Shown here: positions 27,251-37,101 of the stretch, piece by piece
Layout: each line of letters opens with the position of its first letter
How positions within the stretch are numbered: the first letter of the stretch is position 1
Notes under the pieces: generated by a model
Databases searched by the model: none
Told to the model about the DNA's origin: nothing
The model's input: the letters and a program-made list of their open reading frames with translations, nothing else
Source: Hyphomicrobium sp.
GTDB lineage: Bacteria > Pseudomonadota > Alphaproteobacteria > Rhizobiales > Hyphomicrobiaceae
Reading direction: 5' to 3'
DNA length: 64,000 nucleotides
NCBI GenBank assembly: GCA_019751875.1
Contig: JAIEMV010000010.1
Location: forward strand, 53,638-117,637
Program-made: the position numbers and the translations under genes

Positions 27251-29515
27251 TCACCCCAGCCCCATGCTCGCGCGGTGGACGTAGATCGCCATGCCTAAGG
27301 CGAGGAGCGGTACGAGGACGACGTGGGTAATCGTCAGTCCCATCAGCGCCTTTGGACGTTCCTCGAAATAAGGGTTTATGCGGAGAACCGAAATCGCGAT
27401 CATGACCGTGACCGCCAAATAGGCGAACAGAAAGATGCGGTCGGAGAGCGTGGTGCCGTCGCTGTCGATGGCGGGCAACGCGAGATAGAGCGCCACGGCG
27501 GACAAGAGCGCCGTCACCTGGATCGTTACGATCGCTTCGAAGTGGGTGAGGGGAATGAAGATCGAAAGGTAGGCGACGGCCATGATGAACAAGAGCGGCA
27601 CCACAACGCGCAGGAAGTAATCGGTGGTCTCGCGCGACATGATCCACACGAATGATCCCTTATAGAAGGGTACGATGCTCGGCTGGTGGGTCTTGGCGTC
27701 GATCGTCGTCACGAAATCTTCGTCGTAGCCGACATACTGCTCCTTCGGCTCCCATCCAACCGCATCGACGGCGGAATCGCGCAGATCGATCGGCGGTGGC
27801 TGGACGATGAAGGGTTTGTCGCCGCGCTTGGGGCGGATGTTGATCGCGAACCGCTGCGTATCGAAGGGATAGGTTTGAAGCTCGGGTTGGAAGAGAAAGC
27901 GCCCGGACACATGATAGATTTTCATGCCGTCCGGGTAGGCGTCGCTCTTTTCGCCATTGGCAAGGGTGCGCACGGTGATCTGGCGATCGTTGGTTTGCGG
28001 GTTGATCACCGCGTTCGAGAACTCCACGAGATCAATCGAGTTCTCGAGCCCGTCGTCGCGCATGGAGACGTAAAACTCGGCATGGAACGTCTTCTCATTG
28101 TCATCGACCGAGAAGATGCGGATGAGGTCGATATCGAGGTATTGCGTGCCGATCGCCCGCAGGTTCTCGTTCTTGAGGCGGGCGAATTGCATCGGACCGA
28201 GCTGCGTGCGACCCATACCGGGCGCTAATTGCACGAGGAACGGCGTGCGGGTTGCCGTTCGCGTGCGGGGGTCAAAGGACCAGTTTTCGAACTGCCCCTG
28301 GAACACGCCGCGGCCTGCGGCATAGGTGGTCTTCAAGTGTTCTATGATGTGAGATCGTAGCTTTTTGATATCCGCATCGCGGTCTGCCGTTCGGGAAGCA
28401 GACGCGATGATCCCGAGCATGTCGGCATACTGCGTGCCGACGCCGATGGCGCGCAAGTTGTCGTCGGAGAGCGGGTCGTCTGCTGCGCTTGCGGGGCGCT
28501 CTTTGCATTCGCCATTCGCCCAGCCGGGTGCGGATGAGATTTTGTCGCCGATGAAGACCCAATCTTCGGGGGGCTGGCCGGCCATACGGCGCATCAAGCG
28601 TGCGTTGTATAAGTCGGGGAGGCGATCCCAGACGAGTTCAAAAAGAGCGGATGGATAATCGCTTGCGATATCCTTCGGCACGGAGTTGATGCGCCCGGTT
28701 AGCATGATCGCCGGCGTAACGCCCGCTTCTTTCAAGGCCTTTACGAATTCGCCGTTGCGATCGGCGCCTATGGCAAGGAACACGATGTCGGGGTTTTTCT
28801 CTTTCAGATCTGCGATGACGGCGGGGAACCCGGCGGAGTCGGCTTTATTGTCCTTAGTGGCGATGCGATGATCAGCAACGATGTAGGCGCCCATGACGCG
28901 GTTGAGGCCGTCGGCGAGGCTCGTCGAATACAGCTGGTCGCGCATACCAACGAAGGCGGGACGCTGGAATCCGGAGCGTCGAACGAACTGCGCCAGCACA
29001 GGGAGTCGCTCATCATCCTGGGAGGCGCGCATCGTGAAGACATTTGGATAGTCCTTGAAGATGCTGCTCACGGAGATGGCGGACAGGAATGGGATGTTCT
29101 TCTGCTTGATCTCTTTCCCGGCCGCTTCGAACACGGCTTTGGAGCGATCCGAGCTCGACATGCCGATCATCGCAACGCTGTCGGGATCGGATAGAGCTTC
29201 GCGCATATTGGCGGTCGTGCGATTCTGGTCGCGATAGTCGTCGAGGATGCGCAGATCGAGTTTATGACCGGCGATGCCACCCTGGGCATTGATGCGGCGC
29301 TGCTCTTCGGTGACAAAACGCGTTATAGCGGCGACATCGCCACGGTCATAGCACGTGTCGTTGCGGGTCGAGACAAAGACGTTGACCGTGACAGGTGGCT
29401 TGGTCGCGGCCTCGGCTGCTTCGATGGCCGATGCGGGCTCGTCGCTTAATGCGACACAAAACACTAACGCGCAAACAAACCACACGCTTCTTCGCCATAA
29501 GCTCTGAACCGCCAT
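27251..29515 (-). CDS. Periplasmic-binding domain fused to a pentameric ligand-gated ion channel
   Basis: The ATG at 29515 (MAVQSLWRRSVWFVC) opens a signal peptide ending EPASA; the product is 754 residues. Residues ~38-430 are a type I periplasmic-binding (Leu/Ile/Val-binding-like) domain: RINAQGGIAGHKLDLRILDD, MIGMSSSDRSKAV, FPAVIADLKEKNPDIVFLA. From about 460 a Cys-loop-receptor-type beta domain follows, with the signature YPFDTQRF at 549-556 but no flanking cysteines, as in prokaryotic channels. Four helices close the protein: M1 ~632-655, M2 ~658-680 (HFEAIVTIQVTALLSAVALYL, with a Glu at the inner end as in cation-selective channels), M3 ~690-711 and M4 ~729-748. The predicted protein is an inner-membrane channel gated from the periplasm, with two candidate ligand sites. 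It is transcribed alone. Confidence 0.88.
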   Translation of the reverse strand: MAVQSLWRRSVWFVCALVFCVALSDEPASAIEAAEAATKPPVTVNVFVSTRNDTCYDRGDVAAITRFVTEEQRRINAQGGIAGHKLDLRILDDYRDQNRTTANMREALSDPDSVAMIGMSSSDRSKAVFEAAGKEIKQKNIPFLSAISVSSIFKDYPNVFTMRASQDDERLPVLAQFVRRSGFQRPAFVGMRDQLYSTSLADGLNRVMGAYIVADHRIATKDNKADSAGFPAVIADLKEKNPDIVFLAIGADRNGEFVKALKEAGVTPAIMLTGRINSVPKDIASDYPSALFELVWDRLPDLYNARLMRRMAGQPPEDWVFIGDKISSAPGWANGECKERPASAADDPLSDDNLRAIGVGTQYADMLGIIASASRTADRDADIKKLRSHIIEHLKTTYAAGRGVFQGQFENWSFDPRTRTATRTPFLVQLAPGMGRTQLGPMQFARLKNENLRAIGTQYLDIDLIRIFSVDDNEKTFHAEFYVSMRDDGLENSIDLVEFSNAVINPQTNDRQITVRTLANGEKSDAYPDGMKIYHVSGRFLFQPELQTYPFDTQRFAINIRPKRGDKPFIVQPPPIDLRDSAVDAVGWEPKEQYVGYDEDFVTTIDAKTHQPSIVPFYKGSFVWIMSRETTDYFLRVVVPLLFIMAVAYLSIFIPLTHFEAIVTIQVTALLSAVALYLALPAIDSDGTTLSDRIFLFAYLAVTVMIAISVLRINPYFEERPKALMGLTITHVVLVPLLALGMAIYVHRASMGLG

Positions 29516-29624: not shown

Positions 29625-29653
29625 AAAAAAGCCGCTCCCGTATGGGAGCGGCT
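29625..29653 (-). terminator. Rho-independent terminator of the cold-shock gene
   Basis: On the minus strand a perfect stem GCCGCTCCC/GGGAGCGGC with an ATAC loop is followed by TTTTTTG. It lies about 35 bases after the stop codon of the cold-shock gene. Confidence 0.9.
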
Positions 29654-29686
29654 TCCTTTCAATTGCAGACTTCAGGAGAGGCGGTT

Positions 29687-34157: not shown

Positions 34158-34427
34158 ATGATCTCGAATGATTTCCAGCGCCAGATCGACGGCTTCGGAT
34201 TAACGACCGCTGACATTCTCTATCGCCTGCCCGACCACCCGGCGATCCTCCAGCAGTACGTCTGGCAGGAGTATGACAAGGCGCCGAGCTTTCCGGAACT
34301 GAACCGGTTTCTCATGTTCTGGCAGGCGAAGCTCGAGGGGCTGCTCTTCAGGGTCACCGTTTGCCATCGGGCTCTGATCGGGCCGGCAGAGTTGAAGTCG
34401 GTCGATGGCGAGTTCCGGCTGAACTGA
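34158..34427 (+). CDS. usg: Usg protein
   Basis: This is a small (89-residue) protein of a family confined mainly to Alphaproteobacteria, first noticed upstream of tryptophan genes. The sequence has the conserved pattern DFQRQIDGFGLTTADILYRLPDHP, YVWQEYDKAPSFPEL and a C-terminal LIGPAELKSVDGEFRL. Its function is unknown. It is divergent from groESL and is followed 10 bases later by the tandem hairpin array. Confidence 0.88.
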   Translation: MISNDFQRQIDGFGLTTADILYRLPDHPAILQQYVWQEYDKAPSFPELNRFLMFWQAKLEGLLFRVTVCHRALIGPAELKSVDGEFRLN

Positions 34428-34437
34428 GAAATCGCAA

Positions 34438-34688
34438 GTGGCGCAGGGCGACTCCGCTGTTGCGGAGCCGGCCGCCCTGCTGGACTGGAGTGGCGCAGGA
34501 CGACTCCGCTGTTGCGGAGCCGGCCGCCCTGCTGGACTGGAATGGCGCAGGACGACTCCGCTGTTGCCGAGCCGGCCGCCCTGCTGGACTGGAGTGGCGC
34601 AGGGCGACTCCGCTGTTGCGGAGCCGGCCGCCCTGCTGGACTGGAGTGGCGCAGGGCGACTCCGCTGTCGCGGAGCCGGCCGCCCTGC
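34438..34688. repeat. Five tandem 52-bp hairpin units
   Basis: The unit GTGGCGCAGGGCGACTCCGC-TGTT-GCGGAGCCGGCCGCCCTGC-TGGACTGGA starts at 34438, 34490, 34542, 34594 and 34646, the last copy being truncated. Each unit folds into a hairpin: outer arms GCAGGGCG/CGCCCTGC, inner arms CTCCGC/GCGGAG. Copies differ by one to three substitutions. The array lies between usg and the 3' end of a phasin gene. The ORFs called through it (34361-34939, 34438-34785) are repeat translations. Confidence 0.95.
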
Positions 34689-34705
34689 GCGGGCGTTGGG
34701 TCCGC

Positions 34706-35110
34706 TCAGTGGCGGAGTTCGTGAGCGGCTTCCTCGAGACCATCACGGAAGGCAGCGACGGTTTCGCCAGCACATTCACGGTTGACGCGCGAGAGGTGTT
34801 CGACTTCGTGGCGGACCTCGCGCTGCGCAGTATCGACGACATCGCGGTAGGTGATGAAAAGCTCGTTGACGTTGCGGCAGCCCATCAGGCGGCGTGTGGC
34901 CTGCAGTTCATGTTCGACGCAACGGCTCATGAAACCTAGCCACGCCTGGTTGACACGAAAGGCTTGGTTGATCAGGCGGCCGTTGATCTCCGTCATCATT
35001 GAGAATACCGGGCGCTGCAGCATCAGCCACGACTCGAGCGTTGCTTTGGCGCGCGCTTCGAGAGCGTCGTAATCGAGTTCGGGCTGCGTCGGCAAATTGC
35101 TGGTCATCAT
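34706..35110 (-). CDS. Phasin family protein
   Basis: Phasins coat polyhydroxyalkanoate granules. The ATG at 35110 (MMTSNLPTQPELDY; 35107 also possible) has GGGGAG just upstream; the track extension to 35167 lacks support. The 134-residue protein is almost entirely helical, with the phasin-like stretch FMSRCVEHELQATRRLMGC and a following amphipathic heptad region. It fits PHB storage together with the crotonyl-CoA and ethylmalonyl-CoA genes. Its 3' end abuts the hairpin array. Confidence 0.8.
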   Translation of the reverse strand: MMTSNLPTQPELDYDALEARAKATLESWLMLQRPVFSMMTEINGRLINQAFRVNQAWLGFMSRCVEHELQATRRLMGCRNVNELFITYRDVVDTAQREVRHEVEHLSRVNRECAGETVAAFRDGLEEAAHELRH

Positions 35111-35319: not shown

Positions 35320-35928
35320 TCAGGATTGCGCATGACGTGCGTGAATAATGTTTCCAGCTTTCACGAGGTCCGCAGGATTATCCACGTCGAGAAGTTCGTT
35401 CGCATCACTGATGCGAACGGCGATCGCCTCGGCCCCAATGAGAGACTTCGCACCGCGGTCACCTTTGAGAGCAGCAAGCTGAGGCATGTACGCGCACGGC
35501 CAAACCACGGGATTGCGCTGTGCACCGTCACGATCAGCCGCGTAGACGATGGAATGCCCAGCGTGGGCGGCGAAAGTCTGCAAAAGGATTTGCAGCGTTT
35601 GCGGCGTCAGCAGCGGCATATCGCCGGGAATGATCGCAACGCCATCGATGATGGGGGCGAGCACGGCAACGCCAGCCGCGATAGAGGTGCCCATGCCCTC
35701 TTCAGCATCAGCGCAGCCGACGATCTGCACGCGAAACCGCTGCAAGATGTTCTTGACCGCGGCATGATCCTGACCGGTGACGACGAGGGTTTGCTCAAAG
35801 CCCGCGGCAGTGACGGCGGCGAGCGTGTGGGCGAGGACGGGCGCACCTTCGAGATCGGCGAGCAGCTTGTTGCCGGGACCGAAGCGGCGCGAGCGGCCGG
35901 CAGCGAGAACGAGGGCTGCAATATGCAT
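35320..35928 (-). CDS. mocA: MocA-like molybdenum cofactor nucleotidyltransferase
   Basis: MocA-type enzymes transfer CMP to Mo-molybdopterin, giving the cofactor used by xanthine-oxidase-family enzymes. The 202-residue protein starts with the NTP-transferase motif LVLAAGRSRRFGPGNKLLADL, then the metal-binding IPGDMPLLTPQ and the C-terminal LLDVDNPADL. The start ATG overlaps the stop of the ArsM-like gene (ATGA), so the two are translationally coupled. The symbol is by family; MobA-like GTP specificity cannot be fully excluded. Confidence 0.8.
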   Translation of the reverse strand: MHIAALVLAAGRSRRFGPGNKLLADLEGAPVLAHTLAAVTAAGFEQTLVVTGQDHAAVKNILQRFRVQIVGCADAEEGMGTSIAAGVAVLAPIIDGVAIIPGDMPLLTPQTLQILLQTFAAHAGHSIVYAADRDGAQRNPVVWPCAYMPQLAALKGDRGAKSLIGAEAIAVRISDANELLDVDNPADLVKAGNIIHARHAQS

Positions 35929-36980
35929 CAGCAGCAGGCGCCGCTGGTGCCATCTAAGTCGTCGGCGGCGGTGAACGGAATGGATGTTCCGCAGCCGGGG
36001 AAGATGCCGTAGTGCGTATCGAAGTTGCCGATGAACGTGAAGTGATCCGCGAAGCGGGTTTCCCCCAGCATCCGCCAGGTGTTGCCGCAGACAGGAAAAA
36101 CGCGGCCCTTTTCAATATGGTGATGGCCGTCGAGTACGAACGTATCCGGCTCTTCGGAGAGCGTGCCCTTGTAGATCACGGCTTGACCGTAGTCCTCGCA
36201 GGCGTGCTCCAGACCATCGAGCTTGAACAGGCGGTAGGTTGCGGAGAAGAATCTCGCGGCCCCAAGCTTCTTTTGAAGGGCGGCGTTGTTCACGTCCATC
36301 GGGCGGCTGGTGACGAGGCGGGGATCAAGGAAGCCCGCGCGCCTTGCAAGCGAAAGGAAGTCGTTCCAGTAGAGCGCGCCGCTCAGACATTCGCCGTAGA
36401 GTTCGGGATCGCGCACGAGGTGTTCGGGGATGCGGCGGTCGGCATAGACATCGGAGAAGTAAAGTTCGCCGCCAGGTTTCAAGAGGTCGAACGCGCCTTT
36501 CAAGACGGCGGGCTTATCGATCGAAAGATTGATGACGCAGTTCGAGACAATGACGTCAAACGACCCTGGCTCGAGCCCCAGTTCGTCCAAGCGTTCGATG
36601 TAGCCGTGGAGGAAGCGCGTGTTCGGCTTGGCGTAGCCGAATTTCTGGGCGTGCCATTCGACGTGGCGGCGGACGACGGCGAGTTGTTCGTCGGTCATGT
36701 CGACGCCGACGACCTCGCCATTCTCGCCCACGAGTTGGGCCAGCATATAAGCGTCGCGTCCCGATCCGGCACCGAGATCAAGGACGCGGCGACCTGTCAT
36801 TTCCGAGGGGCACACGAGGCCGCAGCCGTAATACTTGGAAGAGACTTCGTCATGTATCCTGGCTGCGAGGGGCCTGAGATGCGCCGGCATGGCGTCGGCG
36901 GTGCAGCAGGCGGACGTCTTCAGATCGTCGGAAGACTTGAGGACCTTGCCGTAGTAGAGCTTGACGCTGTCGTGATCCAT
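35928..36980 (-). CDS. arsM: Arsenite S-adenosylmethyltransferase-like protein (ArsM type)
   Basis: The ATG at 36980 (MDHDSVKLYYGKVLKSS) has GGAG 6 bases upstream; the product is 350 residues. The SAM motif I is VLDLGAGSGRDAYML. The cysteine set expected for arsenite binding is present: ACC near residue 30, KYYGCGLVCP near 60, SNCVINL near 150. The conserved GGELYFSDVYADRRIP follows, and the C-terminus has FPGCGTSIPF and a final ACC. ArsM methylates As(III) to methylated, partly volatile species in the cytoplasm. No arsR or arsB neighbour is present; it is coupled to mocA. Specificity is inferred from the Cys pattern. Confidence 0.78.
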   Translation of the reverse strand: MDHDSVKLYYGKVLKSSDDLKTSACCTADAMPAHLRPLAARIHDEVSSKYYGCGLVCPSEMTGRRVLDLGAGSGRDAYMLAQLVGENGEVVGVDMTDEQLAVVRRHVEWHAQKFGYAKPNTRFLHGYIERLDELGLEPGSFDVIVSNCVINLSIDKPAVLKGAFDLLKPGGELYFSDVYADRRIPEHLVRDPELYGECLSGALYWNDFLSLARRAGFLDPRLVTSRPMDVNNAALQKKLGAARFFSATYRLFKLDGLEHACEDYGQAVIYKGTLSEEPDTFVLDGHHHIEKGRVFPVCGNTWRMLGETRFADHFTFIGNFDTHYGIFPGCGTSIPFTAADDLDGTSGACC

Positions 36981-37101
36981 CGGTGTCTCCGTATTTTCCG
37001 ATCGCAACCCGATACGTTATCCGTGGCTGCCGCGTTTCACGTTCGAGTTGAGAAGATGTGTCTATTGGTGGACCGGGATCGGGGAGGGCGCAAGATCGGA
37101 G

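Follow-up and report, generated by a model that had tools for sequence, protein, structure and literature searches.

A single-chain fusion of a type I periplasmic-binding domain and a pentameric ligand-gated ion channel homologue in Hyphomicrobium

Introduction

The synaptic receptors of animals have bacterial relatives like the fusion protein described here. Fusions of type I periplasmic-binding protein (PBP-I) domains to members of the pentameric ligand-gated ion channel (pLGIC) family were described from Magnetospirillum and Bradyrhizobium by Tasneem et al. in 2004, who proposed a chemotaxis-linked role in ligand sensing and drew a parallel to the NMDA receptor (PMC549065). Such domain associations were known at genome level only according to Jaiteh et al. 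in 2016 (PMC4795631). In the literature that we searched, which covered few subscription papers, we found none that characterised the function of a pLGIC fused to a PBP.

The closest described systems each share a part of the present architecture. The ART-LGIC fusions of Magnetospirillum magnetotacticum and Bradyrhizobium japonicum are likewise alphaproteobacterial and, compared by description, have the same order of parts (N-terminal PBP-I, ligand-binding-type domain, four helices); the accessible text of PMC549065 reports neither a function nor a pocket analysis for them. The proton-gated channel GLIC of Gloeobacter has the same β-sandwich, Pro-loop, pre-M1 Arg, M1–M4 helices and Glu at position −2′, but it carries no PBP, has His at 11′ (Ala here) and Ile at 9′ (Leu here), and contains the M2–M3 proline. 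DeCLIC of Desulfofustis is a pLGIC that also has an extra periplasmic N-terminal domain, one that affects gating; unlike a PBP, this domain comprises two jelly-roll lobes, and the channel is inhibited by calcium. LivJ and LivK of E. coli resemble the PBP domain in fold and in the sequence of lobe 1, but are soluble transporter components whose amino-acid contacts are mostly lost in the fusion. NMDA and AMPA glutamate receptors share the idea of a PBP-like domain above a channel, by analogy only, as they are tetrameric and their pore is unrelated.

An initial annotation of this locus had drawn the glutamate-receptor analogy, which is fair but not new because Tasneem et al. had already drawn it (PMC549065). 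The PBP-I–pLGIC architecture was already described in 2004 and is not new. Our additions concern the breadth of its distribution, its probably single origin, a cysteine pair, and the amino-acid signature, which the clade of the protein studied has lost. Because the family is conserved and widespread and its sensor domain can be separated, ligand discovery becomes directly feasible, as does a test of the way in which a flytrap domain would gate a pentameric pore.

Results and discussion

One reading frame encodes sensor and channel

The window, i.e. the whole stretch of DNA analysed, comprises 64,000 nucleotides from Hyphomicrobium sp. The initial annotation gave correct coordinates for the fusion gene and left its strand unstated; it lies on the minus strand as a complete, ATG-started frame that ends in a stop codon at 27253–27251, and the plus strand across the same interval contains many stops (Table 1). 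All of the parts first noticed there (a signal peptide, a type I PBP, the YPFDTQ motif and four helices in M1–M4 order) were recovered in this frame, with hydrophobic helices at residues ~628–651, 656–678, 688–712 and 722–750. That these form a single-chain PBP-I and pLGIC fusion is borne out by Pfam, by a phmmer match to GLIC and by hhalign. Conservation is counted throughout over 68 full-length relatives with 30–82% identity to the window protein; the Ala30 of the cleavage-like ASA-I site, for example, is present in 60 of them.

Table 1 Features of the fusion gene, in window coordinates.
Feature	Coordinates	Strand	Basis or remark
PBP-I–pLGIC fusion gene, 754 aa	27251..29515	(-)	Pfam, phmmer, hhalign; dN/dS ~0.1
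Signal peptide, residues ~1–31	29423..29515	(-)	Hydrophobic 13–31, cleavage-like ASA-I
Type I periplasmic-binding domain, residues ~38–435	28211..29404	(-)	PF13458 and hhalign
Cys55	29351..29353	(-)	Likely disulfide partner of Cys337
Cys337	28505..28507	(-)	Second cysteine of mature protein
Linker and pLGIC β-sandwich extracellular domain, residues ~436–625	27641..28210	(-)	phmmer to GLIC from 462, hhalign
Pro-loop YPFDTQ, residues 549–554	27854..27871	(-)	P550, D552, Q554 in 68/68
pLGIC transmembrane domain M1–M4, residues 626–754	27254..27640	(-)	
M2 pore helix, E660 (−2′) to A682, with near-invariant IQVTALLSAVALY	27470..27538	(-)	

Comparison with same-genus orthologues gave dN/dS values of ~0.10–0.11 for the PBP, 0.03–0.05 for the extracellular domain and 0.08 for the membrane domain, showing that purifying selection acts on both the PBP and the channel. 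A pseudogene or sequencing artefact was considered and rejected, as the orthologues are intact and dN/dS is ~0.1. In one same-genus metagenome-assembled genome (MAG) the orthologue is split into two frames with a break near residue 396 (L005/L011/L012). At this point it lacks a short stretch that the window has; either a misassembly or a broken gene copy could account for this.

The C-terminal half belongs to the pLGIC superfamily

GLIC from the PDB aligns with residues 462–736 of the fusion protein in a phmmer search (E=7.6e-5) that brings both the Pro-loop and the M2 Glu into register, and hhalign places the channel half with stand-alone bacterial pLGICs (E=3e-18, probability 99). Controls for the latter match reached E=0.18 for a column-shuffled profile and E=0.6 for the PBP half. 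Chance similarity was rejected on the strength of the shuffled control. A profile built from 53 members matches chains of DeCLIC, an ELIC-GLIC chimera and GLIC in the PDB. Beside DeCLIC it also matches PDB entries 9ftg–9ftj, a solved pLGIC chain of 609 aa with a long N-terminal part, for which our literature search retrieved no paper.

The Pfam models Neur_chan_LBD and Neur_chan_memb, which the initial annotation had expected to match, gave no hit to the fusion protein at E values up to 1, and the NCBIfam LIC model reached E=0.033. These Pfam models are insensitive here, since a plain pLGIC encoded by the same host also falls below the gathering cut-off; kinship is seen directly with GLIC or through profiles. 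The fusion claim had been said to fail if the C-terminal part matched no channel family, and the GLIC and profile matches place it in one.

Structure prediction of monomers from shallow alignments reached a pLDDT of 37 for the full-length protein and 44 for the channel half, too low for either model to inform on pockets or interfaces. A Foldseek search with the latter returned solely pLGICs among the 50 matches listed; this support is weak because the TM score is ~0.3 and the model is poor. A search of the channel half for cysteines found none, so the animal-type disulfide Cys-loop is absent, as expected of bacterial members. Overall, the primary structure places the C-terminal part within the pLGIC superfamily.

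Coupling residues and pore are the best-conserved elements

The best-conserved parts of the whole protein are the Pro-loop, Arg628 before M1, the acidic β1–β2 turn and M2. We see that F551 of the Pro-loop occurs in 67/68 relatives beside the invariant positions of Table 1, that Arg628 is present in 68/68, and that the turn retains D471 in 59/68. Asp471/472, Asp552 and Arg628 make up a near-invariant coupling triad; the corresponding Asp-Asp-Arg set is required for activation of GLIC and ELIC, and in GLIC it forms a salt bridge (PMC4778918).

M2 is of the cation type, with Glu at −2′ (E660), Thr at 2′ and 6′, and Leu at 9′ (Leu671), and its stretch I-Q-V-T-A-L-L-S-A-V-A-L-Y is almost invariant. 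E660 is the Glu that had first been noted where M2 ends on the inner side; it aligns with the GLIC Glu without gaps in the phmmer alignment, and by analogy with these M2 positions the channel would be cation-selective, as had been proposed. Position −2′ is Glu in 55 relatives, Asp in 7, Asn in 5 and Gly in 1, so the charge of the filter varies among distant relatives. The GLIC histidine at 11′ is replaced by Ala673. A proline in the M2–M3 loop is common to ELIC, GLIC and many animal members. It has been described as strictly conserved (PMC4778918). At the equivalent position the fusion protein has Asp686 (Asp/Asn in 65/68), followed by a conserved T-x-S-D, and coupling to M2 may therefore differ in detail. 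As the plain pLGIC of the host also lacks this proline, it does not define all bacterial pLGICs.

The channel fold might instead serve as a non-conducting signalling receptor or scaffold, and our literature search did return no electrophysiology for the window's clade. We regard this as highly improbable, given that no other stretch of the protein is conserved as well as the pore helix, which fits conduction.

A divergent clade of distant relatives (L118–L122, L126), several of which occur alongside a second copy within one genome, has Asn or Gly in place of the −2′ Glu and neither of the two cysteines of the PBP, a hint that its ion selectivity differs.

The binding cleft has lost the classical amino-acid signature

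The Peripla_BP_6 search proposed in the initial annotation gave a match of E=5e-22 (PF13458, residues 74–272), and the same family is found in 53/53 fusion members scanned. Pfam thereby recognises only about half of the PBP, namely lobe 1 and a portion of lobe 2, and the region ~273–435 is divergent. Comparison with LivJ-type proteins by hhalign gave E=1.3e-25.

The pocket was compared by alignment with E. coli LivJ, in which lobe 2 is placed less securely than lobe 1. LivJ Asp121 and Glu226 are taken by us to be ligand contacts in this protein family. Docking has assigned further contacts to Ser79, Ala100, Ala101, Thr102, Tyr150 and Tyr202 (PMC6983066). From the set Ser79, Thr102, Asp121, Tyr202 and Glu226, the window's clade keeps only Ser79, as S122 (Ser in 56/68). 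The Thr102 position is Val in the window protein and its clade (Val/Leu in 61/68), Asp121 is replaced by Gln, Val or Glu in 67/68 and Tyr202 by Gly in 61/68, and there is no counterpart of Glu226 (gap or Gly). Arg124 (62/68) and Ser148 (64/68) of the cleft region are conserved.

These replacements bear on the original proposal that the PBP binds a classical α-amino acid and gates the channel. The LIVBP-like fold fits that proposal, as does a deep second fusion clade in which Ser79, Thr102, Asp121, Tyr150 and Glu226, most of the LivJ signature, are kept in 18–20 of 21 members. With four of the five signature positions lost in the window's clade, an amino-acid-like ligand is unsupported there and we consider this reading improbable; it suits the second clade, which retains the signature, better.

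A remodelled pocket could also mean that the PBP has lost ligand binding. It would then be a structural or assembly domain, and a small molecule, a proton or a divalent cation would gate the channel by acting on the interface of the channel's own extracellular domain. The same four losses, the roughly twofold faster evolution of the PBP relative to the β-sandwich domain, the recognition of only about half of it by Pfam and the modulatory precedent of the DeCLIC N-terminal domain all speak for such a role. We nonetheless judge it rather unlikely, since the dN/dS of the PBP is still ~0.1 and a mere spacer would have no need of the conserved cleft residues Ser122, Ser148 and Arg124.

C55 and C337, which lie in the PBP, are the sole cysteines of the mature protein. 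Both are present in 58/68 relatives and both are missing in the other 10/68, a joint pattern as expected of a disulfide, suggesting that the two residues may be bonded.

Proposed mode of action

The reading we favour, and hold to be somewhat probable, is that the gene encodes a cation-type pLGIC of the inner membrane, most likely a homopentamer, with an additional periplasmic Venus-flytrap PBP-I domain ahead of the β-sandwich in every subunit. A periplasmic small molecule, probably outside the classical LivJ amino-acid mode, would close or stabilise the PBP clamshell, and the closed flytrap would push or shift the β-sandwich pentamer. The signal could then pass through the Asp-Asp-Arg triad and the M2–M3 loop, tilting M2 and opening the Leu 9′ gate, such that cations would cross the inner membrane past the Glu −2′ ring. 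In this scheme the PBP could act as the main sensor, or it could allosterically modulate a second site located between subunits. PBP and channel are kept in one chain across 17 genera of the host's family, and DeCLIC provides a precedent for an N-terminal domain influencing gating (PMC9897478). The weakest steps in this scheme are the ligand and the PBP as primary sensor. Extending this favoured reading, the flytrap of the window's clade might have been adapted to a new ligand other than an amino acid and given a lineage-specific disulfide brace, making the protein a naturally modular ligand-gated cation channel; we offer this only tentatively, as a possibility that may well prove wrong.

Distribution, origin and gene neighbourhood

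Strong fusion matches (E<1e-30, counted by hand, with a few copies fragmentary or split between contigs) were found in 64/103 sampled genomes of the host's family, representing 17/25 genera, and the closest named relatives are Hyphomicrobium MAGs. In a sample of the order, the fusion occurs in 7 further genomes outside this family; in a sample of the class outside the host there were weak matches at most and no strong one. The phylum sample contains the divergent, deep second clade, with full-length Peripla_BP_6. No fusion was found among the plasmids searched, and plasmid cargo was rejected as an origin on that basis. In a tree of the channel half, all sampled fusions group together (100/96), apart from the stand-alone pLGICs and GLIC. 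This is consistent with a single old fusion event, which is probable but short of proof because the sequences were chosen by similarity to the window protein. The plain pLGIC of the host genome, about 382 aa in length and without a PBP, is found at L017 (contig C1:23941-24531).

The 5′ flank of the fusion gene holds a cold-shock protein gene and then a terminator-like hairpin (29629–29654), and the 3′ flank a gene for a PepSY protein; these flanking genes are conserved within the genus only. A conserved partner gene was sought across fusion loci of the 17 genera and none was found, so that sensor and channel appear self-contained. In 3/17 genera an RND-type efflux operon is found no more than 5 kb from the fusion gene, in differing orientations; its ~1060-aa transporter and ~425-aa adaptor were identified by their sequences (L138, L141, L144, L145, L151, L158–L160, L162–L165, L167). 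As a functional clue, this operon and the neighbourhood at large were judged unconvincing, the operon being limited to 3/17 genera in variable arrangements and the conservation of the flanking genes to the genus. Elsewhere in the window, positions 35928–37007 of the minus strand encode a methyltransferase in which visual inspection suggests similarity to arsenite methyltransferases and Pfam finds only general methyltransferase domains, and a GC-rich segment at 34361–34842 that appears to repeat 'RPPCWTGVAQ'-like units adjoins a phasin gene.
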